Shown: piece after piece, positions 20,522-36,544 of the stretch
How positions within the stretch are numbered: position 1 is the first letter of the stretch
How the letters are laid out: each line of letters starts with the position of its first letter
From: Aureimonas ureilytica DSM 18598 = NBRC 106430
Lineage (GTDB): Bacteria > Pseudomonadota > Alphaproteobacteria > Rhizobiales > Rhizobiaceae
Assembly (NCBI RefSeq): GCF_000382705.1
Contig: NZ_ARQE01000003.1
Coordinates: 186,001-250,000 of the forward strand
DNA: 64,000 nucleotides
Direction: 5' to 3'
Notes under the pieces: generated by a model
Seen by the model: only the letters and a program-made list of their open reading frames with translations
What the model was told of the DNA's origin: nothing
Database searches by the model: none
Made by a program: the position numbers and the translations under genes

Positions 20522-21874
20522 TCAACGCTCGAGGAAGGCGCGGTTCATGCTGTCGCGCACGGGCTTCACGAGATAGTTCAGGAAGGTGCGGTGCGACGTC
20601 TCCACGAAGATGTCGGCCGGCATGCCCGGATTGATGCGAAGGCCGGGCACGCGCTCCACCTCATGCTCGGACAGGGTGACGCGCACCACATAGACATCGC
20701 CCATCCGGCCCGGGCGCGGGTCGGGCACCGTGTCGGCCGAGACATAGGTGACGTGGCCGCGCATCTGCGGCGTGGTGCGCTGGTTGAAGCTGGTGAGGCG
20801 CACGCCCGCCTCCTGGCCCTGATGCACGCCGTTGATGTCGGTCGGATTGATCAGGGTCTCGATCACCAGCTTTTCGTCGCGCGGCAGGATTTCGGCGATC
20901 TGACGGCCGCTTTCCACGACGCCGCCGGGCGTGTGGTAGTTGAGCTTGACGAGCGTGCCGGACACCGGCGCGCGCACCTCGGTGCGGCCGAGAACGCTCT
21001 GGGCGGCCAGAAGCTGCTCGCGCATGTCGTCCATGTCGGCCTCGATGCCCTGAAGCTCCTGCGTCGCCCCTTGCTGGACCTCCTGGCGTGCCTGGGCGAT
21101 CTGCCCGTCGAGCCGGGCGATCTGCGAGCGCATGTCGCCGAGTTCGCCTTCAATCCGCCCGAGCGCGCCCTCGGCCTCGGCCGCCGCGCGCTCCACGGTG
21201 AAGAGATCGGACCGACGGTAGAGCCCCTGCTTGAAGAGGATCGTCTTGGCGGCGAGTTCCTGCCGGATCAGCCCGCCCTGGCGCTCCACCGCCTGCTTCT
21301 GGGCCTGCGAGCCCTCCATGCGCCGGCGCAGCGAATCCTGGTTGCGCGAGAGCACCGCGACCTGCCCCTCCAGCGCCCGGCGCGCGGCGGCAAAGACGTT
21401 GCGCTGCCCCTCGAAGATGCGGTCGGCCTCGCGGCGGTCCTCGCCGTCCACCTCGATCGCGCCGAAATCGAGCGCGTCGCGCCCCGCGATCAGCGCCTGA
21501 AGGCGGATGGAGCGGGCGCGGTAGCTGGCAAGGCGCAGGAGAAGCCGGCGCACATTGGTGCGCGCCGCCGTCTCGTCCAGCGTCACCAGCGGCTGGCCCT
21601 TCTCGACCCGGTCGCCCTCCTCCACGAGAATGGCGCGGATGATGCCGCCCTCGAAATGCTGCACCTGCTTGTTCTTGCCGGTGGCGACGAAGGTGCCGTG
21701 CGAGACGACGGCTGCGGCGAGCTGCGCGGTGCTCGCCCAGGTGCCGAAGCCCGCGAACACGGCGACGGAGAGAACCAGCCCGCCGATCACCGTGCCCCGG
21801 ATGGAGCGCGGCACGCCGACATACCATTCCTCGATCGCCTCGCCCCGGTGCGAAGGTCCGCCGACGACGCTCAT
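20522..21874 (-). CDS. Type I secretion adaptor (HlyD family)
   Basis: Periplasmic adaptor of 450 residues that should bridge the ABC exporter to a TolC-like outer-membrane channel. There is a short cytoplasmic N terminus, one TM near residues 28-50 (GTVIGGLVLSVAVFAGF), then a biotinyl-lipoyl-like segment (HFEGGIIRAILVEEGDRVEKGQPLVTLDET). A long coiled coil follows (about 100-285, with RNQDSLRRRMEG, QAQKQAVERQGGLI and DGQIAQARQEVQQ). The beta-barrel part begins at APVSGTLVKLNYHTPGGVV and includes LRINPGMPADIFVET near the end. The ATG at 21874 overlaps the ABC gene stop (ATGA) and has a strong GAGGAGGG ribosome site. No outer-membrane protein is in the window. Confidence 0.92.
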   Translation of the reverse strand: MSVVGGPSHRGEAIEEWYVGVPRSIRGTVIGGLVLSVAVFAGFGTWASTAQLAAAVVSHGTFVATGKNKQVQHFEGGIIRAILVEEGDRVEKGQPLVTLDETAARTNVRRLLLRLASYRARSIRLQALIAGRDALDFGAIEVDGEDRREADRIFEGQRNVFAAARRALEGQVAVLSRNQDSLRRRMEGSQAQKQAVERQGGLIRQELAAKTILFKQGLYRRSDLFTVERAAAEAEGALGRIEGELGDMRSQIARLDGQIAQARQEVQQGATQELQGIEADMDDMREQLLAAQSVLGRTEVRAPVSGTLVKLNYHTPGGVVESGRQIAEILPRDEKLVIETLINPTDINGVHQGQEAGVRLTSFNQRTTPQMRGHVTYVSADTVPDPRPGRMGDVYVVRVTLSEHEVERVPGLRINPGMPADIFVETSHRTFLNYLVKPVRDSMNRAFLER

Positions 21875-24162
21875 GGCACCCTCCTCTGGGCCGGAACATT
21901 GCTTTCGCCCGCCGTCTGGCCGGCGATCATCGCGAGGATCTGGCTGCGCTCGCCGATGGCCGAGATCGCGCCCTTGTCCATGACCATGATCCGGTCGACG
22001 CAGCGCAGCAGCGAATGGCGCTGCGTGATGGCGACGACGGTGGTGCCGTTGCTCTTGGCCTTGGTCATGGCGAGGGCGAGCGCGCGCTCGCCATCCGTGT
22101 CGAGATTGGAATTGGGCTCGTCCAGCACCACGAGGCGCGGATTGCCGAAGAAGGCGCGCGCCAGGCCGATGCGCTGCTTCTGCCCGCCCGAGAGCGGCGC
22201 GCCGTCGGCGGCGATGACCGTCTCGTAGCCCTGCGGGAAGGAGGCGACGAGTTCGTGGATGTCGGCGAGCATGGCCGCCTCGAAAACGTCCTCGTCGGCC
22301 GCGTCCTCGCGCATCCGGGCGATGTTGACCTTGATGGAGGCCGGGAAGAGCTGCACATCCTGCGGCAGGTAGCCGATGCTCTCGCCGAGCTGGCGCGGGT
22401 CCCAGTTCTTGAGGTCCATGAGGTCGAGCCGGACATTGCCGGCGGTCGGCATGATGGAGCCGACCAGCATCCGCCCGATCGTGGACTTGCCCGCGCCCGA
22501 CGAGCCGATGATGCCGAGCGCCTCGCCGGGCTTCAGCGAGAAGGAAATGCCGTTGAGGATCACCTTCTTGTTGGGCGGCGGCACGTAGAGGACGCGGTCG
22601 ACGTCGAGCCGCCCCTGCGGGCGCGGCAGGCGCAGGCGCTCCACGTTGAGTGGCGAGTTGAGAAGGAGATGCGAGATTCGGCCATAGGCGGCGCGCGACT
22701 GGATATAGGTGCGCCAGCCCTCGATCGTGCCCTCCACCGGGGCGAGCGCGCGGCTCGCGATGATCGAGGAGGCGATCACCATGCCGCCCGTCAGCTGGCC
22801 TTCCAGCGAGAGATAGGCGCCCCAGCCGAGCATCGCGACCTGCGCGAAGAGGCGCAGCGCCTTGGAGACGGAGGAGAAGAAGACGTTGCGGTCCTGCGCC
22901 GCGACCTGCGAGCGCAAGGAGGCCGCGTTGTCCTTGCCCCAAAGTCGTACCGCCTCCGGGATCATGCCGAGCGCGTTGATGATCTGCGCGTTGCGCGACA
23001 GGGCGTCGAGCGTGAGGTTGGAGCGCGCGTTGTGGCCGCTGGCTTCGGCGAAGTGAACCGCCGTCGCGCGCTTGTTGAAGAAGGCGACGACGAGCAGCAC
23101 CGCGACCGAGACGATGACGATGGCGCCGAGATGGGCATGCACCAGCCAGACCGCGACGATAAAGAGCGGGGCGAGCGGCGCGTCCAGCATGGCGAGCAGC
23201 GTCGATCCGGTCAGAAAGGCGCGGATATGCTGAAGGTCGGCCAAGATTTGGTAGTCCTTGCCCGAGCCCGACAGGGCCGAGCGCGAGGCGGCCGAGAGGA
23301 TGGGCGAGCCGAGGCGCGTTTCCACCTCCACCGCCGTGCGCATCAGGATGGTGCGGCGGATGAGATCGAGCACCACCTGCCCGACGATCGCGCCCACCAC
23401 GATCAGGGTCAGCATCACCAGCGTGTCGAGCGAGCGCGAGGTCAGAACGCGGTCCGAGATCTGGAAAAGGTAGATCGGCACCGCCAGCACGAGAATGTTG
23501 ATGAGGATGGTGAAGGCGAACACCCAGGCGATGTTGCGCCGGACGCGCGCCTTGGTCTGTTCCAGCGCGACGCGGAAGTTCACCTGCTGGCTCTTGCGGG
23601 TGATCTGCGAGCCCGCGTCGTTGGCCGCCGGGCGCGCCTCGGGCAGAAGCGGCCCGCCCGCCTCGCCCTCGATCACCGTGCCGCGCAGCGGCGGGGCGAC
23701 GCGGCCGGGCTCGTTGGCGACGCTGGGCTGGGGCGCGGCGGCAGCGGCCTGCGCCATAGAGGGCTGAGGCACGGCCGGCTGAGGCGGGGCGGGCTGAGGC
23801 GGGGCCGCTTGCGGCACGGCGACTTGCGGGGCAGCGACTTGCGGGCCGGGTGCCGCCTGAGGCGCCGGGCGCTCGGCTCCCCGCAACTCGACCATCGGTG
23901 CGGCAAGGGGCGCGCGCGACGCGGGCTCGGCCGACCGGGATGCCGTGTCGGGCGCGGGCGGGGCGAACGAAGCCGGGATGGCCGGGGCAGGCGCGGCCGG
24001 AAGGGCTGGGGCAGGCGTGGCCGGGGTGGCCGGGGCAACCGGCCTGCTCTCCCCCTCGGCCCGCATGGCGCTGACGGCGGCTTCCATGGACGCGAAGATT
24101 TCCCGCTCGCGCGCGTCCCGTTCGGGGTCGCTGAGGCGCGGGGTCGGCTTGTCCTCGTTCAT
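21871..24162 (-). CDS. Type I secretion ABC transporter (permease-ATPase)
   Basis: Inner-membrane exporter of 763 residues. Residues 1-40 are charged and about 40-165 are a long Ala/Pro/Gln-rich low-complexity stretch unusual in this family. The membrane domain begins near 217 (WVFAFTILINILVLAVPIYLF) and continues to about 500. The ATPase domain has Walker A GSSGAGKST near 553-561, the signature LSGGQKQR near 656-663, and Walker B LVVLDEPNSNLD near 678-689. There is no N-terminal C39 peptidase, so substrates should carry uncleaved C-terminal signals. It lies between two candidate substrates upstream and the adaptor downstream. Confidence 0.92.
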   Translation of the reverse strand: MNEDKPTPRLSDPERDAREREIFASMEAAVSAMRAEGESRPVAPATPATPAPALPAAPAPAIPASFAPPAPDTASRSAEPASRAPLAAPMVELRGAERPAPQAAPGPQVAAPQVAVPQAAPPQPAPPQPAVPQPSMAQAAAAAPQPSVANEPGRVAPPLRGTVIEGEAGGPLLPEARPAANDAGSQITRKSQQVNFRVALEQTKARVRRNIAWVFAFTILINILVLAVPIYLFQISDRVLTSRSLDTLVMLTLIVVGAIVGQVVLDLIRRTILMRTAVEVETRLGSPILSAASRSALSGSGKDYQILADLQHIRAFLTGSTLLAMLDAPLAPLFIVAVWLVHAHLGAIVIVSVAVLLVVAFFNKRATAVHFAEASGHNARSNLTLDALSRNAQIINALGMIPEAVRLWGKDNAASLRSQVAAQDRNVFFSSVSKALRLFAQVAMLGWGAYLSLEGQLTGGMVIASSIIASRALAPVEGTIEGWRTYIQSRAAYGRISHLLLNSPLNVERLRLPRPQGRLDVDRVLYVPPPNKKVILNGISFSLKPGEALGIIGSSGAGKSTIGRMLVGSIMPTAGNVRLDLMDLKNWDPRQLGESIGYLPQDVQLFPASIKVNIARMREDAADEDVFEAAMLADIHELVASFPQGYETVIAADGAPLSGGQKQRIGLARAFFGNPRLVVLDEPNSNLDTDGERALALAMTKAKSNGTTVVAITQRHSLLRCVDRIMVMDKGAISAIGERSQILAMIAGQTAGESNVPAQRRVP

Positions 24163-24213
24163 TGCGTGGTTCCCCTCGAATGGTCTTCTTGTTGTGCTGG
24201 ATAGGCGGGCCGG

Positions 24214-26166
24214 TCAGGCCAGGATGCCCGCCACGCCGTCAGCCGGCGCGTCGTGGCCGAGGCTCGCCGCGGAATGGGCGAGCGCGTCGGACAGGGGGCT
24301 CACCCCGTCGCCATGGATGTCGGAGACGAAGGCGATCAGCTCGGGCGCGAGCGTGCCGGTGTCGAAGGTCTGGATGTCCGGCCCGCTCGCGACGAGCTCG
24401 GCCTGGAGCAGCATGGAGCCCGAATAATATTCGCCGCCCAGGAAGCGGACATGGCCGGCGTCGTCCGCATCGACGATCCGGGCTTCGTTGAGGAGCGTGT
24501 TGCCGCCCGTCGTCACCGTCCATTGCGCGTCCGGCGCGATGGCGTTGGCGAGCCGCGCCAGGCTGCCGTCGGCCATGCGCAGCGTGTCGGCATCGTCCAT
24601 GAGGTTGATCTGCGAGATGACGTTGGTCTCGATCACGTCGCCGGAAATGTAGAGAACCTTGATGTTGCGCCCGGCCAGAAAGGCGAGATCGGCGCCAAGG
24701 CTCGGGTCGCCGCCGGCCAGCCGATCCTCGAAGGCCGAGACGAGCGCGCGCATCTCGGGCGAGAAGCCGGTGAAGTCGGCGAGGCCGCCGACATTGGTGA
24801 TCGAGGCGTTGTTGGCGAGAAGATTGCCGGAGGTCGAGACCGAGCCGCCCGTCCCGCTCGCGTCCGAGACGATCCGGTCGCTGTCGTTCAGGACGTTGAT
24901 CTGCTGGATGAAATTGCCCTCATAGACGCTGCCGCCGACGATCACGAGATCGTAGGCGCCGAGGAGCTTGGAGAGCGAGGCGACGTTGAGGCTCTCGTTG
25001 CCCCCGGTCGAGGCGCGCACGGTGGATTCCATGGCCGAAAGCACGACCTGATCGCCGTCCAGCGTCAGCTTCACCTGACGCAGGAAATTGGCGATCTCCA
25101 GATTGCCCTCGATCACGTCCACCTTGTAGCGCGTCGGCAGGCTGTCGCGCGGGTCGAAGGCGGGGCGGCCCTCGGGCGTGCGGTCGATGCGCTCGAAGCT
25201 CGCGATGTTGAGGCTGCGCGTCGTGTCGCCGATCGCGGCACTCACCGCGTCCCCCAGCCCCTCGACGCCGTCGCGGTCGGCATGGATGTTGAGCTGGCGG
25301 ATGGAATTGACCTCGAACCAGTCGCCCTCGACCACGGTGACGGCGCCCAGATGCCCGACATTGAGAAGCGCCGCCTGGTTGGCCGACAGGTTGCCGCCCA
25401 TCTGGAGAAGCGGCTGGTCCTCGCCGATGTCGGGCGCCTGCCTCGCCTCCTCGACGAGCTTGCCGAGATCGGGGGCGCTGTCCACTTTCTCGCCGTCGAC
25501 GAAAATCCCCTCGTGGCCGCTCGGTGCGCCGGCAGCGGAAGGCTCCGCGCCCTCCTGTGTCGCTTCGCGCTCGAGAAGGCCCTTCAGGTCGGCGGGCGTG
25601 TGGGGGATGCCGGGCAGGTGCTGAAAGTCGCGCGCCGCGCCGAGCATCGCCTCGAACTGCTGCGTGACCTCGGCCACGACGAGAAGCGGATCGGCGTCGG
25701 GATCGAGGATCAGCGTGTCGCGATCGTCGAGAAGGCCGATCTGCTCGTGGATCGCAAAGAGCGAGTCGGACGGGACGGTGCGGTAGAGGAACAGCGCGTC
25801 CGGGTCCGGCCGCATCGTCTCCCAGCCCGCCGAACTCGCAGGGATGGCGACCTCGCCCGGCGCGCGGAAATGGGAAAGCGGCAAAGGGTCGATCGCGAGG
25901 TCCACATGGGGCGGGGGCAGGCGCCGGCTCGCCACGTCCTCGATCTCGAAGCGATCGTTCGCGAGGCGAATGTCGGGATCGATGACCGGAGCCGACAGGG
26001 CCGGCCCTCTTGCGGGCGGGTCGTCCTCGGCATGGGTCCGGGGATGGACCTTGGCCAGATGCGGGGTGCCGGCGAACAGTCGGGCGTGCAGTCCGGCGTC
26101 GGTCTCGGTGACGCGGAACAGGCCGATGAAGCGGGCGATGGTTTCCTGGGCCTCGATCATGAGCAT
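24214..26166 (-). CDS. Putative type I secretion substrate with NxxxQφ repeats
   Basis: A 650-residue acidic protein without signal peptide, probably exported by the adjacent ABC system. It is built of repeats. A unit of the form GN-x-L-x-N-x-A (near 258, 389, 447, 555) is followed by a strand and then G-(D/N/S)-x5-N-x-(I/L)-x-Q-(I/L)-x-(I/L)-x-x-D-x-D. Copies of the second part are at residues 281-299, 354-372, 412-430 and 509-527, with a degenerate one at 578-597 and an N-terminal relative at 133-150. No RTX nonapeptides are present. Related rhizobial proteins are, to my memory, annotated only as 'type I secretion protein'. The real function is unknown; a surface or matrix protein is inference. 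Confidence 0.65.
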   Translation of the reverse strand: MLMIEAQETIARFIGLFRVTETDAGLHARLFAGTPHLAKVHPRTHAEDDPPARGPALSAPVIDPDIRLANDRFEIEDVASRRLPPPHVDLAIDPLPLSHFRAPGEVAIPASSAGWETMRPDPDALFLYRTVPSDSLFAIHEQIGLLDDRDTLILDPDADPLLVVAEVTQQFEAMLGAARDFQHLPGIPHTPADLKGLLEREATQEGAEPSAAGAPSGHEGIFVDGEKVDSAPDLGKLVEEARQAPDIGEDQPLLQMGGNLSANQAALLNVGHLGAVTVVEGDWFEVNSIRQLNIHADRDGVEGLGDAVSAAIGDTTRSLNIASFERIDRTPEGRPAFDPRDSLPTRYKVDVIEGNLEIANFLRQVKLTLDGDQVVLSAMESTVRASTGGNESLNVASLSKLLGAYDLVIVGGSVYEGNFIQQINVLNDSDRIVSDASGTGGSVSTSGNLLANNASITNVGGLADFTGFSPEMRALVSAFEDRLAGGDPSLGADLAFLAGRNIKVLYISGDVIETNVISQINLMDDADTLRMADGSLARLANAIAPDAQWTVTTGGNTLLNEARIVDADDAGHVRFLGGEYYSGSMLLQAELVASGPDIQTFDTGTLAPELIAFVSDIHGDGVSPLSDALAHSAASLGHDAPADGVAGILA

Positions 26167-26199
26167 CGGATCGCCCCTTTCGAAACCTTGATCGGGAGG

Positions 26200-26240
26200 A
26201 AAAAGGGCTCACGCCGCTCCTTTGGAGACGACGCGAGCCC
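26200..26240 (-). terminator. Rho-independent terminator of the Asn/Asp-rich gene
   Basis: Read on the minus strand, GGGCTC ... GAGCCC closes a long hairpin (26205-26240 in plus coordinates, with wobble pairs and one bulge) followed by five T. A second, shorter hairpin with 8-base arms lies at 26247-26274, nearer the stop. Together they separate the Asn/Asp-rich gene from the next substrate gene, suggesting independent or attenuated expression. Confidence 0.75.
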
Positions 26241-26284
26241 AAGGAAGGGAGCGCCCGAGGGGACGAGCGCTCCCGGCTGGAGAT

Positions 26285-27382
26285 TTACGCGTCGCCGAAA
26301 TCCGCGCCGCCCGCGTCGCCGCCCACCACGGCCATGTCGACGCTGGTGAACTGGATGTTGGCGCCCATCGAGATGTCCATGTTGAGGGCCTCGTGGCCGG
26401 CCGAGATGCCGGAGGCCGCGCTGTTGCCCGCCGAAAGGGTCGAGCTGTTGCCGGCCTGAAGGTCCCCGTTATGCGTGGCGTTCGCCGTGCCGCCGTAGAG
26501 ATCCGAGGCGTTCATCGAGAAGGCGCCGCTGCCGTTCTGCATCTGCAGGCTGGTGCTCGGCTGGTTGAGCCAGTCGCCGTCGTTCAGCGTCGCGATCTGC
26601 TGGATCGAGAAGACGTTGCCGTTTCCAAGCAAGGCCTGTCCGCCATCGGCGTTCATCGCGTCGCCGCCCGCCTGCCCGATGATGCCGTCGAGCGTGTTGC
26701 ACAGGCCCGCCACGTCGATCAGGTCGTCGTCGGAATTGAACGAGTCCTCGACGCTGGAGCTGTAGTCGTTCAGCGAGTCGGTTAGCGAGATGTCCGTGCT
26801 GGCGTCGTTGTTCGAGTTGTGTGTGCTCGAGTCCGAAGCGTAGGTGCTGTTGTCGTCGTTCGAGTCGGTTGTGCGATTGTCGCTGTAATCGTTATTCTGA
26901 TTCGAATTGTTCGCGTTGTCGGAGTTGTTCGAATTATCAGAATTGTCCGAATTGTCATTGTTTGAGTTATTGGTACTCTTGTTGTTTCCGTTGTCGGCGA
27001 TATCGCCAACCGCCAAGGATGTCGAATTGTCGTTACCCGAATCATCGACGCGGCTGTAATCGTTGCCCTGGTTCGAACGATTGGAGTTGTCGTTGCCGGA
27101 GTCGTCGACGCGGCTGTAGTCGTTACCCTGATTGGATCGGTTGGAATTGTCGTTGCCGGAATTGTCCGCGCTGGCGTCGGTGTTGGTGCTCTGGTCGTTG
27201 CCCTGGTTCGAGTGGTTCGAATTGTCGTTGAACGAGTCCGTCTTGCTGTTGTCGGACAGGTCGCTCTTCACGACCGAACCGTCGGCCGACTGGTCGTTGT
27301 TCTGGTTCTCGTAGTTCGACGAATTGACGAAGGCTTCCGCGACGGAACCGGCCATGGCGGTGGTGTTGCGATCGACGCTCAT
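26285..27382 (-). CDS. Asn/Asp/Ser-rich repeat protein, putative exported substrate
   Basis: A 365-residue protein dominated by Asn, Asp and Ser between residues 20 and 220, with no signal peptide and one Cys. A 20-residue unit occurs twice in exact tandem (75-94, 95-114) and begins a third time; its core is NRSNQGNDYSRVD. Looser NQxND / DNSNN copies fill the rest. The C-terminal part (220-365) differs: LIDVAGLCNTLDGII, then VFSIQQIATLNDGDWLN near 257-273, then Gly/Ala/Ser-rich strands. The Q(I)-x-x-L-N-D-x-D motif matches the repeats of the neighbouring putative substrate. The ATG at 27382 is preceded by GGGAG. Not a recognised family. Confidence 0.7.
   Translation of the reverse strand: MSVDRNTTAMAGSVAEAFVNSSNYENQNNDQSADGSVVKSDLSDNSKTDSFNDNSNHSNQGNDQSTNTDASADNSGNDNSNRSNQGNDYSRVDDSGNDNSNRSNQGNDYSRVDDSGNDNSTSLAVGDIADNGNNKSTNNSNNDNSDNSDNSNNSDNANNSNQNNDYSDNRTTDSNDDNSTYASDSSTHNSNNDASTDISLTDSLNDYSSSVEDSFNSDDDLIDVAGLCNTLDGIIGQAGGDAMNADGGQALLGNGNVFSIQQIATLNDGDWLNQPSTSLQMQNGSGAFSMNASDLYGGTANATHNGDLQAGNSSTLSAGNSAASGISAGHEALNMDISMGANIQFTSVDMAVVGGDAGGADFGDA
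27023..27160. repeat. 60-base tandem coding repeat, about 2.3 copies
   Basis: In-frame tandem repeat inside the Asn/Asp-rich gene. Two identical 20-residue translations differ by several synonymous bases, so the array is not freshly duplicated: the protein sequence is conserved while the DNA has drifted. Confidence 0.8.
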
Positions 27383-27820
27383 TTCATTCTCCCGTTGGGT
27401 TCGAGACAGCCGCCGTCGCTCCTCTTCTGCGGGAGACGGACATCCGACTGGCGATTTTGATGGGTTGGGTTCGCTCTTTCCGCGCGCCGGCTCGGTACGA
27501 TTGCGGCGATCCGAAGCGTCGGCAGAAAGGTTACGCAACAAGAAGCCAGGCGACGCGACGCCACTTGGCCAGTCTTTCGGGGAAGGATGCTTGTCCCTCA
27601 GGGTCTTGCCAGCGCTTTCGACTGGTTAAGACAAAATTAACATCGCGGAAGATCGGCGCTTTGTCTTGCGGGGAAGAACCCTCCCGAACGTCGGGAGAAT
27701 TCCGTCGGGAAGACCGAGGCCCGCGCCCCTCGCCGAACCCGGCGCTAGGCGGCGCCCCGTTCGAGGCGCATGGTGAAGAGGCTGTTATGGACCTTGAAGG
27801 ACCCGCGAAGGGAGGCCGCC
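27383..27820. other. Gap between the Asn/Asp-rich and HEPN-like genes
   Basis: Divergent intergenic region of 438 bases with no supported gene. It holds the CtrA-type site at 27626-27641 and a perfect 7-base inverted repeat (CTCCCGA, ACG, TCGGGAG) at 27681-27697. The HEPN-like gene has a GGGAGG ribosome site just before 27821. Confidence 0.5.
27626..27641. promoter_or_regulatory. Perfect CtrA-type binding site
   Basis: TTAA, seven bases (GACAAAA), TTAAC: an exact match to the alphaproteobacterial CtrA consensus TTAA-N7-TTAA(C). It lies about 244 bases upstream of the Asn/Asp-rich gene and about 180 upstream of the HEPN-like gene. In a GC-rich genome an exact chance match is uncommon. Confidence 0.65.
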
Positions 27821-28399
27821 ATGAAGCCGCAGACCCGTTTGCCCCCGACGCCGGATTTCGAGGCGATCGAGGCGGCGGCGCGCGAGGAGGCGGCGACCGC
27901 CGCGCGCGGCGACGTCTTCGCCATGATCGGCCACCTGTCCTTCAGCTGGTCGAACAACGAGAGCCTTCTCGCCTATTTCATCATGCTGCTTCTGCGCTGC
28001 GACCGCGACGCGGCGCTGATCGTGTTCGGCACGCTCAACACCAGCCGCGCGCGGGTCGATCTCGTGCAGAGGCTGGCGCGCGTGAAACTCGCCGATCGGG
28101 CGCTGGCGGGCGAGTTGAAACGCCTCCTGGCGCGTTTCGAGACGGGCACGCGCATGCGCAACGACCTCCTCCACGCCATGTTCACGGTGGACGAGGCGGG
28201 CCGGATCACCCACACGCACGCGATGCGGCTGGAGGACCGGGCCAAGGGCCTGCGCTTCGGCGCGGCCAAACCGATGGACGGCGAGCGGATCGAGGCGATC
28301 CGCGCCGAAATCCGGGCGATGAACGAATTGAACCGTGATCTGTGGAATTTCCTGCCGCGCCTCGAAGCTGCGCTCCGCTCGGGCGCGCGTGGGCGCTAG
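27821..28399 (+). CDS. HEPN-like helical protein, function unknown
   Basis: A 192-residue, mainly helical protein. The segment SWSNNESLLAYFIMLLLRC near residues 42-60 and the later RMRNDLLHAMF near 111-121 resemble HEPN-fold proteins, whose ribonuclease members carry R-x4-6-H. Here R113 and H118 give R-x4-H. No partner nucleotidyltransferase is adjacent, and catalytic activity is not established. I chose the ATG at 27821 for its GGGAGG site; the frame is open upstream to an ATG equivalent at 27770. Confidence 0.6.
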   Translation: MKPQTRLPPTPDFEAIEAAAREEAATAARGDVFAMIGHLSFSWSNNESLLAYFIMLLLRCDRDAALIVFGTLNTSRARVDLVQRLARVKLADRALAGELKRLLARFETGTRMRNDLLHAMFTVDEAGRITHTHAMRLEDRAKGLRFGAAKPMDGERIEAIRAEIRAMNELNRDLWNFLPRLEAALRSGARGR

Positions 28400-28656: not shown

Positions 28657-29358
28657 TCAGTTTGGCCGGGGCTGCTCGCGCGCCTCGAACTCGGCGATCG
28701 AGTTGAACCAGCCGGCCCGATGCGCATAGCGGATGATGTCGGAGCGCGAAGCGAGGCCCAGCTTGGCGATGGCGCGCGCCTTGTAGGTCTCGACCGACTT
28801 CTGGCTGATGTCGAGATCGCGCGCGATCTCCTTGGCGCTGTAGCCATAGGCGGTGCGGCGCAGGACCGACATCTCGCGCGCCGACACGCGGCTGGGCGAT
28901 CCGGCGAAGGGCGCGAAGACCGCGTTGTCGAAGCGCGCGGCCACCGGCGTCGCCATGATCGGCACGAGCCGGGGATCGAGATAGGTCTCGCCCCGCGCGA
29001 CGCGCCGGATGGCGTCCAGAAGCGCGCCCTCGGCGGCGGATTTGAGGATGAAGCCCCGCGCGCCCGCCGCGAAGGCGGCCTCCACCACCTCCCGCTCGCG
29101 CGTATGGCCGAGCAGCAGGAGCCGTGAACGACCGTTCAAGGCGCGCTGCACGGCGGCGATGGCCTCATGGTTCAGGTCCACCATCGCGGTGTCGAGCGCC
29201 ACGACATCCGCCTGCGAAATCCGCACGGCGTCGGCCGCGCCCGCCAGATCGGTGACGCAGGCTTGGATGGCGAGATCCGGTTCGCCTTGCCGTTCCAGGA
29301 CGTTGATGAAACCCGCCACGAAACAAGGCTCGTCGCTAACGAGCAAGACGAGGCACAT
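28657..29358 (-). CDS. LuxR/NarL-type response regulator
   Basis: A 233-residue regulator. The N-terminal receiver domain has the acidic pair D9/E10 (VSDEP), the phosphoacceptor D56 (VVALDTAMVD) and K106 (FILKSAAEG), so it looks phosphorylatable. The C-terminal LuxR helix-turn-helix (about 158-220) has SAREMSVLRRTAYGYSAKEIARDL and ISQKSVETYKARAIAKLG. No cognate kinase is adjacent. I chose the ATG at 29358 behind GGAGGGG. Two GTGTCGG-type palindromes lie in the upstream gap, so it may control itself and the polysaccharide genes; this is inference. Confidence 0.9.
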   Translation of the reverse strand: MCLVLLVSDEPCFVAGFINVLERQGEPDLAIQACVTDLAGAADAVRISQADVVALDTAMVDLNHEAIAAVQRALNGRSRLLLLGHTREREVVEAAFAAGARGFILKSAAEGALLDAIRRVARGETYLDPRLVPIMATPVAARFDNAVFAPFAGSPSRVSAREMSVLRRTAYGYSAKEIARDLDISQKSVETYKARAIAKLGLASRSDIIRYAHRAGWFNSIAEFEAREQPRPN

Positions 29359-29388
29359 AACCCCTCCTATTCTTCCAAGACTGCTATC

Positions 29389-29409
29389 GTGTCGGAAAAT
29401 ACCCGACAC
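29389..29409. promoter_or_regulatory. Inverted repeat upstream of the LuxR-type gene
   Basis: Perfect 7-base arms (GTGTCGG / CCGACAC) with a 7-base spacer, 31 bases upstream of the regulator start. The same half-site occurs in the palindrome at 29719-29731. Probable operator; the binding protein is unknown. Confidence 0.5.
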
Positions 29410-29963: not shown

Positions 29964-31043
29964 ATGAAACATCATCCCTGGCCGGCCCTGCCGGCTCCCC
30001 TCGTGCCGAAGATCCCCTCCGGCAAAAGCATCGCCGTGACCGGCGGTGCCGGTTTCCTCGGCTCGCATCTGTGCCAGGCGCTCCTGGCGCAGGGCCACCA
30101 TGTCGTGTGCCTCGACAATTTCGCCACGGGCAGCCCGGACAATCTGCGCCGCTTCGTGGCGACCAATCGCTTCACGCTGGTCGAGCAGGACGTCGTCCTG
30201 CCCTTTCCCTGCGATCTGCCTCGCTTCGACGAGATCTGGAACCTCGCCTGCCCCGCCTCCCCCGCGCATTACCAGCGCGATCCCGTGCGCACGCTGTTCA
30301 TCTGCGCGGACGGCGCCCGGCGCGTCCTGGAGCGCGCGACCGAGGACGGCGCGCGCGTCTTCCACGCCTCGACCTCCGAGGTCTATGGCGACCCGGACGT
30401 CCACCCCCAGCCCGAGACCTATGTCGGCCACGTCAATCCGGTCGGCCCGCGCGCCTGCTACGACGAAGGCAAGCGCTTCGCCGAAGCCGTCTTCACCGAG
30501 GGGTGCGCGCGCGCCGGCCTGGACCTGCGCATGGCCCGCATCTTCAACACCTACGGCCCCCGGATGCACCCGGACGACGGGCGCGTCGTGTCGAACTTCG
30601 TGGTCCAGGCCCTGCGCGGGGACGACATCACGCTCTATGGCGACGGGTCGCAGACGCGCTCCTTCTGCTATGTGGACGATCTGATCGCCGGCTTCCTGGC
30701 GCTGATGGCGCTGGACGAGGACCCGGGCGGCCCGGTCAATCTCGGCAATCCCGTGGAAACGCGGATGGACGAGCTCGCCGATCTCGTGGTGGCGCTCACC
30801 GGCTCGCGCTCGCGCATCGTCCGCCGGCCGCTGCCGGTGGACGACCCGCGCCGCCGCCGGCCCGACATCGCCAAGGCCAGGGCGCTTCTCGGCTGGCAGC
30901 CCGCCGTGCCGCTGCGCACCGGGCTGGAGCGCACGATCGCGCATTTCGGCGAGCGCGTCGCGGCGGCGTTCGAGCCCTTCGCCCCGCCGGCCGCGCTCGC
31001 CGCGGCCGCCCGCCCTCTCGCCGGGGGAGTGATGGCGTCATGA
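29964..31043 (+). CDS. UDP-glucuronate decarboxylase (UDP-xylose synthase)
   Basis: NAD-dependent short-chain enzyme (359 residues) converting UDP-glucuronate to UDP-xylose. The Rossmann motif is VTGGAGFLGSHL near residues 25-36. The UXS-specific run is STSEVYGDPDVHPQPETYVG, followed by VNPVGPRACYDEGKR with the catalytic Tyr/Lys (YDEGK), then ARIFNTYGPRMHPDDGRVVSNF and YGDGSQTRSFCYVDDL. It is the first gene of the polysaccharide cluster and overlaps the next gene by an ATGA, so its substrate supplier (UDP-glucose dehydrogenase) is translationally linked. Confidence 0.9.
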   Translation: MKHHPWPALPAPLVPKIPSGKSIAVTGGAGFLGSHLCQALLAQGHHVVCLDNFATGSPDNLRRFVATNRFTLVEQDVVLPFPCDLPRFDEIWNLACPASPAHYQRDPVRTLFICADGARRVLERATEDGARVFHASTSEVYGDPDVHPQPETYVGHVNPVGPRACYDEGKRFAEAVFTEGCARAGLDLRMARIFNTYGPRMHPDDGRVVSNFVVQALRGDDITLYGDGSQTRSFCYVDDLIAGFLALMALDEDPGGPVNLGNPVETRMDELADLVVALTGSRSRIVRRPLPVDDPRRRRPDIAKARALLGWQPAVPLRTGLERTIAHFGERVAAAFEPFAPPAALAAAARPLAGGVMAS

Positions 31044-32578
31044 AGATCATCGTCATTGGAACCGGCTATGTCGGTCTCGTCACCGGCGCGTGCCTCGCCG
31101 ATCTCGGACACGAGGTCACCTGCTTCGACACGGATGCGAACAAGATCGCCCGGCTGAAGAACGGCGAGATGCCGATCTACGAGCCGGGCCTCGAAGCGCT
31201 GGTCCTGGCCGAGGTCGCCGCAAAGCGCCTCGGCTTCGCCAGCGGCGCCCTGCCCATCCAGGCGGACACGCGCGCCGTGTTCGTGGCGGTCGGCACGCCG
31301 CCGTCCGCGCTCGACCATTCGGCCGATCTGTCCTCGGTCTTCGCGGTCGCCGAATCGATCGGGCGCGCCAGCCTCGGCCCGCTCGCGGTGATCGTGAAAT
31401 CCACCGTCCCGGTCGGCACGGGCGAGGCGGTGGAGCGCATCCTGCGCGAGGTGCGGCCCGAACTGGAGTTCGACGTCGTGTCGAACCCCGAATTCCTGCG
31501 CGAGGGATCGGCGCTCGCCGATTTCCACGCGCCGGACCGCATCGTCGTGGGCACCGGCTCGCCCCGGGGCCGCGACACGCTGGCCGAGATCTATCGGCCA
31601 CTGACGGATGGCGGCGCGCCGCTCGTCTTCACCGAGCGCGCCTCGGCGGAGATGATCAAATACGCCGCCAACGCCTTTCTGGCCGCCAAGATCGCCTTCA
31701 TCAACGAGATCGCCGATCTCTGCGAGGCGGCGGATGCCGATATCGAGGAAGTGTCGCTCGGCGTCGGTCTCGACCGGCGCATCGGCGCGGCGTTTCTGCG
31801 CCCCGGCCCGGGCTTCGGCGGCTCCTGCTTTCCCAAGGACACCGAGGCTCTCCTCGCCACGGCCCAGAGCCACGGCGTGCAGCTGCGCCTCGTGGAAAGC
31901 ACGGTGGCCGCCAATGACGGGCGCAAGCGCGCCATGGGCCGGCGCGTGATCCAGGCGATGGGCGGCGTGCGGGGCCGCACGCTCGCCGTGCTCGGCGTCA
32001 CCTTCAAGGCGGGCACCGACGACATGCGCCAGGCGCCCTCGCTGCCGATCCTCGCCGCGCTTCGGGCGGCGGGCGCAAGGCTTCGCATCTTCGACCCCGA
32101 GGGCATGGGCCAGGCCCGCGCCGTTCTGCCGGACGCCGATTATGCCGACAGCGCCTATAGCTGCCTCGACGGCGCGGACGCGGCGCTGCTCGTCACCGAC
32201 TGGCCGGAATTCGCAGCGCTCGACCTGTCCCGCGTGGCGGAGCGGATGCGCGGCGATGTCTTCGTGGACCTGCGCAATCTGTTTCCGCCCGACGCCCTGC
32301 GCGCGGCGGGCCTTCGGCCCTTCGGCATCGGACGGCGCTCGCGCCTCGCCGTGCCGCAGCCGGTGCGCGGGCGCGCGGTCGAGGATCTGCGCCAGGGGGT
32401 CGCGCCAGGGCCCCTCTCACCGCCCTCCTCTCTGCCCTCCTCTCCGGCCTCCGCCCCGGCATCGCCCCCGGTGCCGGCCGGCGCCCTGCCCGAGCCCCGG
32501 CCCGGCGACCTTCCCCCGCTCGCGCTCGTCGCGGCGGCGAAGGCGGCCAAGGCCGGGCTCAACGGCCACGCCGGCTGA
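31040..32578 (+). CDS. ugd: UDP-glucose 6-dehydrogenase
   Basis: Oxidises UDP-glucose to UDP-glucuronate with NAD. The N-terminal GTGYVGLVTGACLADLGH lies near residues 7-24. NPEFLREGSALADF, the helix EMIKYAANAFLAAKIAFINE, and the catalytic cysteine in GPGFGGSCFPKD (C263) are all present. The C-terminal domain has GVTFKAGTDDMRQAPS. The protein is 512 residues, longer than the usual 430-450, because of a Pro/Ala/Ser-rich tail from about 435. The same reading frame stays open far upstream, but the true start is the ATG overlapping the UDP-xylose synthase stop. Confidence 0.95.
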   Translation: MKIIVIGTGYVGLVTGACLADLGHEVTCFDTDANKIARLKNGEMPIYEPGLEALVLAEVAAKRLGFASGALPIQADTRAVFVAVGTPPSALDHSADLSSVFAVAESIGRASLGPLAVIVKSTVPVGTGEAVERILREVRPELEFDVVSNPEFLREGSALADFHAPDRIVVGTGSPRGRDTLAEIYRPLTDGGAPLVFTERASAEMIKYAANAFLAAKIAFINEIADLCEAADADIEEVSLGVGLDRRIGAAFLRPGPGFGGSCFPKDTEALLATAQSHGVQLRLVESTVAANDGRKRAMGRRVIQAMGGVRGRTLAVLGVTFKAGTDDMRQAPSLPILAALRAAGARLRIFDPEGMGQARAVLPDADYADSAYSCLDGADAALLVTDWPEFAALDLSRVAERMRGDVFVDLRNLFPPDALRAAGLRPFGIGRRSRLAVPQPVRGRAVEDLRQGVAPGPLSPPSSLPSSPASAPASPPVPAGALPEPRPGDLPPLALVAAAKAAKAGLNGHAG

Positions 32579-32597
32579 GCGGGAAGGAGGTCGCCCC

Positions 32598-34127
32598 ATG
32601 CACACGCTCGCGTGGGCGGGGGATGCGGACACGGGTCTCGTGTCCGCCTTCCTTCTGTCCCAGATCCTTTACGCCCTCTCGCTCGGGCTCGGCCTGTTCT
32701 TCCTGCGTTTGCCGGTGGACTGGGTGGACCCGCGCGAGGCTGAGGGGCGCCGGCCGGAAGAGCACCCGACGATCGTGCTCTTCTATCCGGTCCTGCGCGA
32801 ACTCGAATCCACGATGCGGACGACCTTCCTGTCGCTCGCCCGCATCGACTATCCCGCCTCGCGCTACCGCGTCGTCGCCATTCCCAACGCCAGCGACACG
32901 GCCACCGTGGAAAGCCTGCGGCGGCTCGCCCGCGAGTTCGCCTTCCTGCAGATCGTCGAGGTGCCCGCCACCGGCGATCCGTCCTGGCAGATCGTGTGGG
33001 ACAGCTGGGACGAGAATCCCAAGGCCTACTGGTGGCACAAGGGCAAGCGGGCGGGCGTGAAAGCCCTGCCGCCCAAGAAGACGCGCCAGCTGATCTACGC
33101 CTTCTACCAGCTGGCCGCGGAACGGGCCGGCGAGGAAGACTTCCTCGTCAACTATATCGACGCCGATTCCTGCCCGCCGCCCGATCACTTCCTCGCCGCC
33201 TCGGCGGGAATGCGGCACTTCGACGTGCTCCAGGCGCAGAACATCGCCGGCAATCTCCTGACGTCGATGCCCGCCTCCTGGCACGCGTTCGACCACATGG
33301 CCTGGGACGGGTTTCTCTATCCCCATCTCTCGGCCGGCGGGCGCCAGCCCTATTGGGTGCTCGGCAAGGGTCTCTTCTTCCGGGCCTCCGACCTCGTCGC
33401 GCTCGGCGGCTTCCACCCCTGGATCACGATCGAGGACCCGGAGGTCGGCATGCGCTTCTGGACCAATGGCAAGCGCATCGGCATCATCGAGAATCCCTTG
33501 ATCGAGGAAGTGCCCTCGACGCTCGCTCACGGCATCACGCAGCGCAAGCGCTGGGTCTGCGGCTTCTTCCAGAGCCTCGCCCAGCCCCTGAAGGACATGG
33601 GCATGACGCCCTGGCAGCGCGTTCGGGCACGGCTGAACTTCGGCCCCTGCCTGTCGCTCTCGGCCCATGCGATCGGCCTGCCCATGGGCCTGTGGGCGCT
33701 CGCCGCCTGGCGCTGGGGCGACAGTCCGGTGCCGCCCTGGACGCTCGGTCTCGCCGCCGTGAACCTTGCGGTCTTCGCGCTGACGCTGGGCGCGATCTAC
33801 CGCTCGGTCTGGCGGCGCGCCGCGCTCGTCCTGCCCGAGCGGGCCGATCGGCTGCGCTATCTCCTTCGCGTCAATCCGGCCTCGCTCGTCGTCTGGTGGC
33901 TCCTGTGGCTCGTGCCGCTCGCCATCGGTTTCTGGATGTTCCTGCGCGATCGCGGGCTCGTCTGGGAGCGCACGGTGAAGATCGACGCCAACCACGAGCT
34001 GGTGCGCGCCGTCGCCGGCTCGCAGCCCGCCACGGTGCGGCTCGGCGCCGATCTCGCCCCGCCCCACCCCGCCAATCGCAATCTCGCCGCCGACGCCGAG
34101 GCCCCCGTGCCCGGCCTCGCGCTCTGA
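32598..34127 (+). CDS. Membrane family-2 glycosyltransferase with QxxRW motif
   Basis: A 509-residue integral membrane glycosyltransferase. An N-terminal TM lies near residues 16-37. The GT-A domain has PNASDT near 98, the DAD metal site at 188-190, ED at 279-280 and QRKRW at 315-319, the set seen in processive beta-glycan synthases. Three to four TMs follow (about 350-375, 385-405, 440-462). GGAAGGAGG precedes the ATG. Placed after UDP-glucuronate and UDP-xylose makers, it may polymerise a sugar chain across the inner membrane. The sugar is not provable from sequence, and it lacks an obvious PilZ domain. Confidence 0.8.
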   Translation: MHTLAWAGDADTGLVSAFLLSQILYALSLGLGLFFLRLPVDWVDPREAEGRRPEEHPTIVLFYPVLRELESTMRTTFLSLARIDYPASRYRVVAIPNASDTATVESLRRLAREFAFLQIVEVPATGDPSWQIVWDSWDENPKAYWWHKGKRAGVKALPPKKTRQLIYAFYQLAAERAGEEDFLVNYIDADSCPPPDHFLAASAGMRHFDVLQAQNIAGNLLTSMPASWHAFDHMAWDGFLYPHLSAGGRQPYWVLGKGLFFRASDLVALGGFHPWITIEDPEVGMRFWTNGKRIGIIENPLIEEVPSTLAHGITQRKRWVCGFFQSLAQPLKDMGMTPWQRVRARLNFGPCLSLSAHAIGLPMGLWALAAWRWGDSPVPPWTLGLAAVNLAVFALTLGAIYRSVWRRAALVLPERADRLRYLLRVNPASLVVWWLLWLVPLAIGFWMFLRDRGLVWERTVKIDANHELVRAVAGSQPATVRLGADLAPPHPANRNLAADAEAPVPGLAL

Positions 34128-34153
34128 TCCCCCGTTTCGAAGGAACCCCCTCC

Positions 34154-35290
34154 ATGTCCAAAGGTCATGTACTCGTCACCGGCGGCGCCGGCTTCATCGG
34201 CTCGCATCTCGTCGACCAGCTTCTCGAGCGCGATTTCGAGGTGAGCGTGCTGGACTGCCTGAAACCGCAGGTCCATGCCGACGCCGAGCTCGATAGCGAC
34301 GGCTGGCCCGTCTATCTCGACCGCCGAGCCCGGCGCATCCGGGGCGATCTTCTCGACGACGGCGTGTTCGAAGCCGCCCTGTCGGGCGTCACGCATCTGG
34401 CCCATCTCGCCGCCTCGGTCGGCGTCGGCCAGTCCATGACGAACATCGTCGACTACTGCCGCAACAACGTCATGACGGCGGCGATCATGCTGGAAACCCT
34501 GTCGCGCCGGCCCCACACGGTGCGGCGCATCGCGGTCGCCTCCTCCATGTCGATCTATGGCGAGGGCGCCTATCAGGGCTCGAGCGGCCCCGTCGCCCCG
34601 CAGCTTCGTCCCCACGGCCAGCTCGCCGCCCACGACTGGGAGCTGACCGACGAGAGCGGCGACCGCCTGTCGCCCTTGCCGACGCCGGAGGACAAGCTGC
34701 TCCAGCCGGCCTCGATCTATGCCGTCAACAAGCGCGACCACGAGGAGATGTTCCTGTCCGTCGGCCGGGCGCTCGGCATTCCCACCGTGGCGCTGCGCCT
34801 GTTCAACGCCTATGGATCGCGTCAGGCGCTCTCCAATCCCTATACCGGGGTCGCCGCGATCTTCATCTCGCGCCTTCTGAACGACCAGCCGCCGCTGGTC
34901 TTCGAGGATGGCGACCAGCGGCGCGACTTCGTGCATGTGCATGACGTCGCGCGCGCCTTCGCCACCGTGCTGGACAGCGACAAGGCGGTCTGGGATTTCT
35001 ACAATGTCGGCTCCGGCCAGTCCGTCACGGTGCGCGAGATCGCCGCCGTGCTCGCCCGGCTCCTGCACAAGAACATCGGGCCGGAGGTTCTCGGCCAGCA
35101 CCGCGTCGGCGACATCCGGCATTGCTTCGCCGACATTTCCAAGCTGGAGCGCGATTTCGGCCTGCGGCCCACGCGCGGTTTCGAGGAGGGCATGGGCGAG
35201 TTGATCGAATGGGTCGCCTCGGCCCGCAAGCCCGTCGACCGCGCGGCCTCGAGTCTCGGCGAGCTTCAGGGCTCGCGGCTGGTGGTGTGA
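34154..35290 (+). CDS. NAD-dependent sugar-nucleotide epimerase
   Basis: Extended short-chain dehydrogenase (378 residues) resembling enzymes annotated as dTDP-L-rhamnose 4-epimerases. The Rossmann motif is VTGGAGFIGSHL near residues 8-19. AASVGVGQSM, SSMSIYGEGAY, and the insert carrying LPTPEDK precede YAVNKRD with the catalytic Tyr/Lys. SRQALSNPYTGVAAIF, DGDQRRDFVHVHDVARAF and VGDIRHCFADIS are typical. Its substrate here could be a UDP-pentose or another NDP-sugar. It closes the rightward cluster, 26 bases after the glycosyltransferase. Confidence 0.8.
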   Translation: MSKGHVLVTGGAGFIGSHLVDQLLERDFEVSVLDCLKPQVHADAELDSDGWPVYLDRRARRIRGDLLDDGVFEAALSGVTHLAHLAASVGVGQSMTNIVDYCRNNVMTAAIMLETLSRRPHTVRRIAVASSMSIYGEGAYQGSSGPVAPQLRPHGQLAAHDWELTDESGDRLSPLPTPEDKLLQPASIYAVNKRDHEEMFLSVGRALGIPTVALRLFNAYGSRQALSNPYTGVAAIFISRLLNDQPPLVFEDGDQRRDFVHVHDVARAFATVLDSDKAVWDFYNVGSGQSVTVREIAAVLARLLHKNIGPEVLGQHRVGDIRHCFADISKLERDFGLRPTRGFEEGMGELIEWVASARKPVDRAASSLGELQGSRLVV

Positions 35291-35293
35291 GGA

Positions 35294-36544
35294 TCAGATC
35301 CCCAGCGGCCGACGCTCGAAGGCCGACAGAATCGCCTCGCGCATCGGCGCGGGGCGCATGTCCGAATCATAGGGAAGGCCCCGGTTGAAGCCGGGGCCGG
35401 GCCCCGCCTCGCCGACGAGGCGCCAGTAGAATTCGAGGTCTTCGGGTTCGATCGCGAGCCAGGAATGGCGCGTCGAGAGCCCCCAGGTCGTCACGGCCCG
35501 CACGGACGGGCAATCGAGCGCGACGTCGAGATAGCGCTTGGTGATCTCGGCCACCAGCCGGTCGCGCACCGCCGGCGGCGCGCTCAGTTCGCGCTCGCGC
35601 ACGTCGAGTTCGGTGATGTGGATTTCGAGCCCGAAACCGGCGATCTCGCGCAGGAAGCGATCGAAGACCCCATCCGAGAACGGCCCCTTTCGAAGGTCGA
35701 GATGCCCCTGGAGGCCGATGCCGCCGAGCGGCGCGCCGGCTCGCATCAGCCGCTCCACCAGCTTCAGGAAGAGATAGCGCCGGTCGCTCTCCACCGGAAT
35801 GTCGTAGTCGAGCCCGTATTCGTTGAGAAAGAGCCGCGCGTTCGGGGCGTGGGCGCGCGCCTCGTGAAAGGCGCGCTCGACATAGGTCTCGCCGAAGGCT
35901 TGCAGAAAGGTGCCGCCCCGCAGGCCGTCCATGCGATGGCCCGTGTCGATCGGCTCGTTCACGACGTCCCAGGTTTCGATCGCCGCGCCGTAGCGCGACA
36001 GGACGGCCTCGAAATGCGCCGCCACCGGCGCCCAGCCCGCGCCGTCCGCCAAAGCCGCTTCCGCCCAGGCGGGAACGCTGCGGTGCCAGATCAGCGTGTG
36101 GCCGTGGAGCGCGCGCCCATGCTCGGCCGCAAAGCGCAGGAGCGCGTCGGTGCGCGCGAAGTCGCGGCGGCCCGGCTCGGGCTCGATCGCGTCCCATTTC
36201 AGCGAGATTTCGGGGGTCAGCGCGTCGCATTCGGCCAGAAGCGCCTCGGCAAGGTCCGGCTCGGCGGCGATCTCTTCGCTGCGCGCCGCCGCCCCGAAGC
36301 GCCGGCCGCCGCGCGCGGCCGCTGCCCGAAGCGAGGCTCGCTCGGGCGCGCGCGCAGGTTCGGTGGGCAGGGTGAACAGGGCGCCCGCTCCCAGAAGAAG
36401 ATGGCGCCGGCTGAGCGCGAGCGGCGCGGCGGGAGCCGGAAGCCCGGCCGTGCCGCTAGCCCCGCGCCCCGGCGCGGCCTCGCGCCCGGCGCTTTCGCGC
36501 TCGCCCCTTTCGCGCCCGGCTCCGCCCTCGCGATCGCAGGGCAT
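35294..36544 (-). CDS. GH10 endo-1,4-beta-xylanase, Tat-exported
   Basis: A 416-residue glycoside hydrolase family 10 enzyme that hydrolyses beta-1,4-xylan backbones. A twin-arginine signal (SRRHLLLGAGALF) lies at residues 45-57 behind an unusually long N region. The catalytic domain (about 80-410) has HGHTLIWH at 147-154, WDVVNEP with acid/base E197, LNEYGLDYD, QGHLDL and the nucleophile E312 in HITELDV, followed by TTWGLSTRHSW. It converges on the epimerase with only three bases between stops. Its presence beside UDP-xylose genes hints that the cluster's polymer contains xylose. Confidence 0.93.
   Translation of the reverse strand: MPCDREGGAGRERGERESAGREAAPGRGASGTAGLPAPAAPLALSRRHLLLGAGALFTLPTEPARAPERASLRAAAARGGRRFGAAARSEEIAAEPDLAEALLAECDALTPEISLKWDAIEPEPGRRDFARTDALLRFAAEHGRALHGHTLIWHRSVPAWAEAALADGAGWAPVAAHFEAVLSRYGAAIETWDVVNEPIDTGHRMDGLRGGTFLQAFGETYVERAFHEARAHAPNARLFLNEYGLDYDIPVESDRRYLFLKLVERLMRAGAPLGGIGLQGHLDLRKGPFSDGVFDRFLREIAGFGLEIHITELDVRERELSAPPAVRDRLVAEITKRYLDVALDCPSVRAVTTWGLSTRHSWLAIEPEDLEFYWRLVGEAGPGPGFNRGLPYDSDMRPAPMREAILSAFERRPLGI

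Follow-up and report, generated by a model that had tools for sequence, protein, structure and literature searches.

What does a type I exporter carry when the genes beside it encode two proteins of no described family? The question is posed by a locus in the window analysed here, a 64,000-nucleotide stretch of Aureimonas ureilytica DSM 18598 = NBRC 106430 (contig NZ_ARQE01000003.1, positions 186,001 to 250,000). Four co-directional genes adjoin one another on its minus strand in the order S1, S2, ABC, HlyD, confirming an earlier note on this DNA that had placed an adaptor, an ABC exporter and proteins of 650 and 365 residues together. S1 (26285..27382) encodes a 365-residue protein with a low-complexity N-terminal part rich in Asn, Ser and Asp and a conserved C-terminal part; S2 (24214..26166), a 650-residue β-repeat protein in which five half-repeats B alternate with half-repeats A; ABC (21871..24162), an exporter of the PrtD class with a Pro/Ala-rich N-terminal extension of ~200 residues; and HlyD (20522..21874), whose start overlaps the ABC stop codon, a HlyD-family periplasmic adaptor recognised by an NCBIfam match. 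In our best explanation, to which we assign a probability of about 0.5, these genes form a dedicated type I secretion system (T1SS) module: S1, made in excess, and S2, an organiser, would co-assemble into a surface fibre or matrix element under the control of a regulator and a HEPN-like protein. Gene linkage, a repeat common to both proteins, a hairpin and co-occurrence across genomes were computed; export, the excess of S1, co-assembly, the matrix role and control are inferred.

The exporter itself is readily classified. ABC matches NCBIfam TIGR01842 with 699.5 bits (cut-off 510), the adjoining HlyD matches TIGR01843 with 382 bits (cut-off 209), and a TolC-type gene outside the operon (G000:C2) exceeds the cut-off of TIGR01844 with 322 bits, so that the exporter, adaptor and channel of a T1SS are all encoded in the genome. 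The ABC-HlyD pair and the TolC-type channel encoded elsewhere would export S1 and S2, and type I export of both through this exporter is likely. The same genome holds a second PrtD-class exporter above the cut-off, and specificity of the present one for S1 and S2 is presumed. At E ≤ 1, neither S1 nor S2 matches any family in Pfam or NCBIfam, and S2 has no PDB sequence match. None of 56 S2 proteins matched Pfam at E ≤ 0.01, and against NCBIfam they yielded five unrelated stray families (1-2 members each, E 0.02-0.09); 19 S1 proteins hit four stray Pfam families with one member each, no family recurring. Both families are acidic and have a median Cys count of 0, and S1 ranges from 305 to 695 residues (two copies cut by contig starts excepted) compared with 612 to 718 for S2. 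The earlier note was right that the window pair lacks an evident signal peptide (best 13-residue N-terminal hydropathy means 1.09 and 0.78; a predictor was not run) and RTX repeats: GGxGxD is absent from both proteins, which led us to reject an RTX identity for the pair, and from all 56 S2 proteins. The locus thus shares with PrtD/PrsDE systems the TIGR01842 and TIGR01843 components and acidic, Cys-poor proteins without evident leader beside the exporter, but differs from them in presumed substrates that match no described family and in the extension of ABC. This extension is Pro/Ala/Gly-rich family-wide, with a median of 183 residues and a range of 7-352 in 54 open reading frames, figures that depend on the called starts. 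When RTX repeats are lacking, it is difficult to tell from sequence what a type I exporter carries.

The 55 named loci were found by an S2 pattern, and S2 is therefore present in them by choice; S1 lies directly before S2 in all 55, while ABC follows S2 in 52 and HlyD is present in 51 of them. The missing ABC and HlyD genes reflect contig ends (the three loci without ABC end there); L062 has an ABC frame split in two. A single-protein search recovered S2 in 25 of 297 genomes of the same order; when 20 of the 24 S2-bearing genomes other than the window's own were examined, S2-ABC-HlyD was found in 20 of 20 and S1 upstream in 18, the two loci without an upstream S1 match (L032, L041) beginning at a contig end. 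These counts are not independent, because the two sets overlap by at least five pairs of equally long contigs (L029/L108, L030/L091, L034/L098, L036/L058 and L039/L057) and many of the 55 loci are close relatives. Conversely, an S1 profile matched 23 of the 297 genomes, all among the 25 with S2; of the remaining two, G108 and G207, the latter has an S1-like gene by BLAST (L042). Each of S1 and S2 occurs once in the window genome. The suggestion that the two proteins form an exporter-linked two-component system, for which gene neighbourhood had been named as a possible refutation, survived this test.

The pair is further united by a repeat, which is clearest in S2. The motif Q-φ-x-φ-x-x-D-x-D (φ, hydrophobic) occurs five times in the window protein, and 0 of 5000 shuffles reach that number. 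Four copies, recovered by motif scan and alignment at residues 291-299 (25270..25296), 364-372 (25051..25077), 422-430 (24877..24903) and 519-527 (24586..24612), had been listed before at the correct residues, but the copy at residues 142-150 (25717..25743) had been missed; all lie on the minus strand. The longer form proposed for them, N-x-(I/L)-x-Q-(I/L)-x-(I/L)-x-x-D-x-D, holds literally from residues 287 and 515, whereas those from 360 and 418 require Val to be allowed. Across 56 aligned S2 proteins the Gln is invariant at all five sites and the Asp residues at +6 and +8 at four of them, with 48/56 and 54/56 at Q291. The five sites also resemble one another: in 26-column windows every pair beats all 200 controls drawn at random. 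At Q588 there is a sixth but degenerate site, with no D-x-D and no match to the site at Q142. The full repeat combines a half B, N-x-I-x-Q-x-N-x-L-x-D-x-D, with a half A, G-x-N-x-x-x-N-x-A ... V-x-G-D, and G-x-N-x-x-x-N-x-(A/S) averages 2.25 matches per S2 protein compared with 0.03 in shuffles. An AlphaFold2 model of S2 is of moderate quality and β-rich, with strands of ~20 residues separated by tight turns; Foldseek returned no significant fold match for it, the top PDB row being FapC at E = 0.1.

Whether S1 carries the same repeat is less obvious from the window than from its relatives. The stretch singled out in the earlier note, VFSIQQIATLNDGD, is present at residues 257-270, but position +3 of the motif is Thr, and the uncorrected pattern occurs in only 5 of 57 S1 proteins (3.7% of shuffles). 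Once corrected to Q-φ-x-x-φ-x-D-x-D, the motif is found in 55 of 56 S2 proteins (4% of shuffles) and 51 of 57 S1 proteins (2.6% of shuffles), the latter count not being blind, because the profile with which the S1 relatives were gathered spans the motif site; each of these relatives is also the gene directly before S2. The window S1 motif, half-repeat B at residues 262-270 (QIATLNDGD; 26573..26599, minus strand), is not significant alone, because 762 of 5000 shuffles contain at least one match when Thr counts as hydrophobic and Asn is allowed for Asp; in 25 of 25 aligned S1 rows, the Gln and the Asp residues at +6 and +8 are invariant. The claim of a common motif thus holds through the relatives, with the window S1 by itself within chance. 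Half-repeat A was located by alignment and pattern scan near the C-terminus at residues 340-356 (GxNxxxT...VVGGD; 26315..26365, minus strand), G-x-N-x-x-x-(N/S/A/T)...(V/I)GG occurring in all 57 S1 proteins and in 5% of shuffles.

A score matrix derived from S2 only had its highest-scoring window at the motif site in 55 of the 57 S1 proteins, the exceptions being L086 and L087 (cut by contig start). In 37 of the 57, no more than 2 of 200 shuffles scored as well (L086 is one of these, at another place); in the remaining 20, 3-57 of 200 did, so that the place agrees and the score is weak. Profile-profile comparison of the two families was likewise weak (E 0.018, probability 2.5%), and structure prediction found no confident domain in the C-terminal part of S1 (mean predicted local distance difference test score, pLDDT, 42). 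With a moderate S2 model, none for the S1 C-terminal part and a weak profile comparison, the common fold that had been proposed is putative, as is the calcium-binding turn named as its alternative.

The clearest case of a repeat common to both proteins is a variant operon, L132:8321-10404 in genome G108. In the S1 position it encodes a 268-residue protein in which the B-A repeat occurs four times in tandem; the neighbouring gene encodes a 406-residue S2-like protein (71 bits with the S2 profile). The shorter protein was found by the S2 profile (19 bits) and not by S1 profiles, and we call it S1-like for its place and composition; a single BLASTP comparison aligned the two neighbours at E = 5e-7. 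With the S2 matrix, its four best B windows coincide with the four repeats, although 1, 4, 43 and 164 of 500 shuffles are as good, and its four best A windows coincide with four G-x-N-x-Q-x-N sites, yet 80-176 of 500 shuffles score as well. Also present in the variant are ABC and HlyD, together with a regulator-like gene (68 bits). Elsewhere S1 is doubled in tandem before S2, as in Afifella marina (L108:5147-7164), L028 and L127; L029, also with a doubled S1, probably represents the same genome as L108.

Between S1 and S2 lies a spacer (26167..26284, minus strand) with two predicted hairpins, the second of which (26205-26240) is followed by TTTTT. The gap has a median length of 106 nucleotides across the family, and its hairpin stability relative to shuffles reached z ≤ -2 in 51 of 56 spacers and z ≤ -3 in 36 (30 shuffles each, the relatives' sequence including 60 nucleotides into S2). 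Control regions behaved differently: of 55 loci, the corresponding numbers were 3 and 0 for the S2-ABC junction and 5 and 1 for sequence within S2. When a T-run was required, 25 of 56 spacers passed -8 kcal/mol compared with 31 of 168 shuffled sequences. For the window's own spacer z = -2.7, and a terminator scan of the window did not list the second hairpin. S1 is probably abundant, because a conserved hairpin should lower downstream expression or protect the S1 message, and the hairpin thereby suggests that S1 would be made in excess over S2.

Two further genes, both beyond the coordinates given in the earlier note, belong to the conserved neighbourhood. SM (27770..28399, plus strand; start codon uncertain) encodes a small conserved protein with an invariant R-N-x3-H and no Pfam match of its own, and RR (28657..29409, minus strand) is a LuxR/NarL-type response regulator identified by Pfam, NCBIfam and the locus survey. 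SM is present in 48 of the 55 named loci, and the seven without it are cut: L068, L086, L087 and L090 start only 0.4-3.1 kb ahead of S2, and L069, L078 and L081 comprise 8 kb before S2 without SM, their contigs ending 0.5 kb after S2. In four other loci (L071, L073, L080 and L097), SM lies after HlyD. A LuxR-type regulator likewise accompanies 48 of the 55 loci; an L081 query detected it in 45, always on the strand opposite the operon, and the window copy is on the operon's strand. Beyond the 55 loci, S1-S2-ABC-HlyD occurs with SM in 7 of 7 further stretches; SM, RR, S1, S2, ABC and HlyD are all present in the three records from Sulfitobacter faviae, Sinorhizobium meliloti Ak57 and Paracoccus denitrificans. 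The remaining four stretches, loci of another order, each carry SM, S1, S2, ABC and HlyD, and one of them an RR match.

By profile search, SM occurs in 26 of the 297 genomes and coincides with S2 in 24, that is, in 24 of the 25 S2 genomes. S2 lacks SM only in G108, where none was found in the 18 kb around L132; SM occurs without S2 in G285 (E 1e-5) and G294 (E 1e-56), in which the 18-19 kb around it contain neither S2 nor an exporter, and in G294 only a 10-bit S1-profile match. R130-N131-x3-H135 is invariant in 49 of 49 SM proteins and conforms to the Rx4-6H motif of the HEPN superfamily; Rx4H with Asn after Arg is a form that we take to be that of HEPN proteins, and SM shares it with them. 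It departs from them in matching no HEPN family in Pfam among 15 members, and weak PADLOC matches to Csx1 (4/15 members, best E 0.021) and CARF-HEPN (1/15, E 0.028) are paralleled by equally weak ones to BrxC and AbiEi (1/15 each). Pfam gave a weak HTH_30 match in 3/15 (best E 0.008), and there was no PDB sequence match at E ≤ 10. SM may accordingly be a member of a HEPN-like family and a candidate RNase. Presumed cargo, repeat, regulator, RNA element and HEPN-like partner make up one conserved module.

How could such a module work? S1 and S2 would be co-evolving substrates built from one β-repeat (half B plus half A), S1 as the variable, low-complexity and probably abundant component and S2 as the organiser, a nucleator or anchor of constant length with five repeats. 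Outside the cell they would co-assemble by repeat stacking into a surface fibre or biofilm-matrix element, with the neighbouring LuxR-type regulator and the HEPN-like protein controlling the module. The surface or matrix role is suggested by comparison with curli and Fap and by the sugar genes that adjoin the window and Sulfitobacter loci. In the window these encode an NAD-dependent epimerase (predicted to be UDP-glucuronate decarboxylase-like), a UDP-glucose/GDP-mannose dehydrogenase family protein and a GT2 glycosyltransferase (29964..34127, plus strand); the sugar genes together with a GH10 family protein occupy 29964-36544. Their linkage to the module is partial, a related epimerase neighbouring only 15 of the 55 named loci.

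The locus has several features in common with curli: a LuxR-type regulator nearby (CsgD is of this type), strand repeats rich in Asn and Gln, and a pair of related repeat proteins of which one varies in size and the other is constant. CsgA and CsgB are described in these last terms (PMC3521004). The present gene set differs in its type I exporter, no search having been made for CsgG, and membership in curli was rejected: QxGxxN occurs in only 2 of 57 S1 and 2 of 56 S2 proteins, below the shuffled level, and PF07012 is absent from the Pfam matches obtained for 56 S2 and 19 S1 proteins. FapB and FapC are again a related pair, whose repeats bear an Asn/Gln motif and whose linkers are long and variable (PMC12392863). 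S1 resembles them in that G.N.Q.N is found in 45 of 57 proteins compared with 3% of shuffles, but the motif is found in 0 of 56 S2 proteins. Membership in Fap was also rejected, since GxxNQQxN, a short form of the published motif and not the authors' HMM, is missing from all 57 S1 and all 56 S2 proteins; no FapF-like gene was noticed, no search being aimed at it. By analogy, the module may work like curli or Fap without belonging to either, and if the pair assembles, repeat fibres would be formed outside the cell by a route that needs neither curli nor Fap pores. A more specific version, which we regard as quite doubtful, posits a separate functional-amyloid-like fibre system with a type I exporter, in which S1 chains of B-then-A half-repeats would be stacked head to tail onto an S2 nucleator through its B/A repeats and the HEPN-like partner would act on the S1-S2 hairpin, setting the S1:S2 ratio.

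The same data can be read without a polymer. PrtD-class exporters often carry calcium-binding substrates, and the nearly invariant D-x-D at each S2 copy could form a ladder that takes up calcium once outside the cell, in the manner of RTX or Rap/cadherin-like substrates, making S1 and S2 non-polymerising, cation-dependent adhesins or exopolysaccharide (EPS)-binding proteins. We consider this unlikely, though worth serious attention. At least two GGxGxD matches in 27 of 57 S1 relatives, a count made without shuffle control, would fit it; their absence from the window pair and 56 S2 proteins does not, nor does calcium alone explain why the Asn and Gln positions are conserved as strongly as Asp. 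Rap proteins are described as PrsDE type I substrates that act in the biofilm matrix of rhizobia, as S1 and S2 might, and one of them, RapD, binds calcium and EPS (PMC9298526). Rap proteins, however, share a cadherin-like domain, and no Pfam family recurs in the scanned S1 and S2 proteins.

The hairpin between the first substrate and the later genes, together with the acidic, Cys-poor character of S1, might also point to a bulk S-layer- or capsule-like coat protein anchored by S2, with no ordered fibres. S1, however, is largely low-complexity, variable in length and without a confidently predicted domain, unlike a lattice-forming protein, and we think this reading improbable. Still less probable is that S2 is a secreted β-helical enzyme (lyase, hydrolase or epimerase) acting on a neighbouring polysaccharide, with S1 as a spacer or inhibitor. 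Sugar genes are nearby and several of the non-significant Foldseek rows, AlgE4 included, are what we take to be β-helix proteins, but the invariant residues of S2 are structural in kind (G, N, Q and D inside repeats) with, by eye, no catalytic-looking cluster, the 56 S2 proteins contain no Pfam enzyme family at E ≤ 0.01 and only NCBIfam strays at E 0.02 or worse, and S1 carries the same repeat, which a spacer would not need. We retain co-assembly of S1 and S2 as our best explanation.

The module is carried by soil and marine bacteria of two named orders, Hyphomicrobiales and Rhodobacterales, and probably of a third. In a sample of 385 genomes from across the class, relatives were found in 2, the window genome being one of them (at most three candidates scored per genome). 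The order to which the second belongs has them in 6 of 76 genomes; its small size suggests that it is not Rhodobacterales. A phage origin was rejected, with 0 matches in 50,697 phage records. Relatives occur in 32 of 72,556 plasmid records, of which 5 are typed conjugative, and among the 30 listed many replicons exceed 1 Mb. Among named relatives of the window S2, the closest belongs to Aureimonas ureilytica NS365 (locus L107, 78% identity). The S2 of Sulfitobacter faviae (L110:14068-16176) is annotated as 'type I secretion protein ATPase', a label that its sequence does not support and that is probably a naming error.

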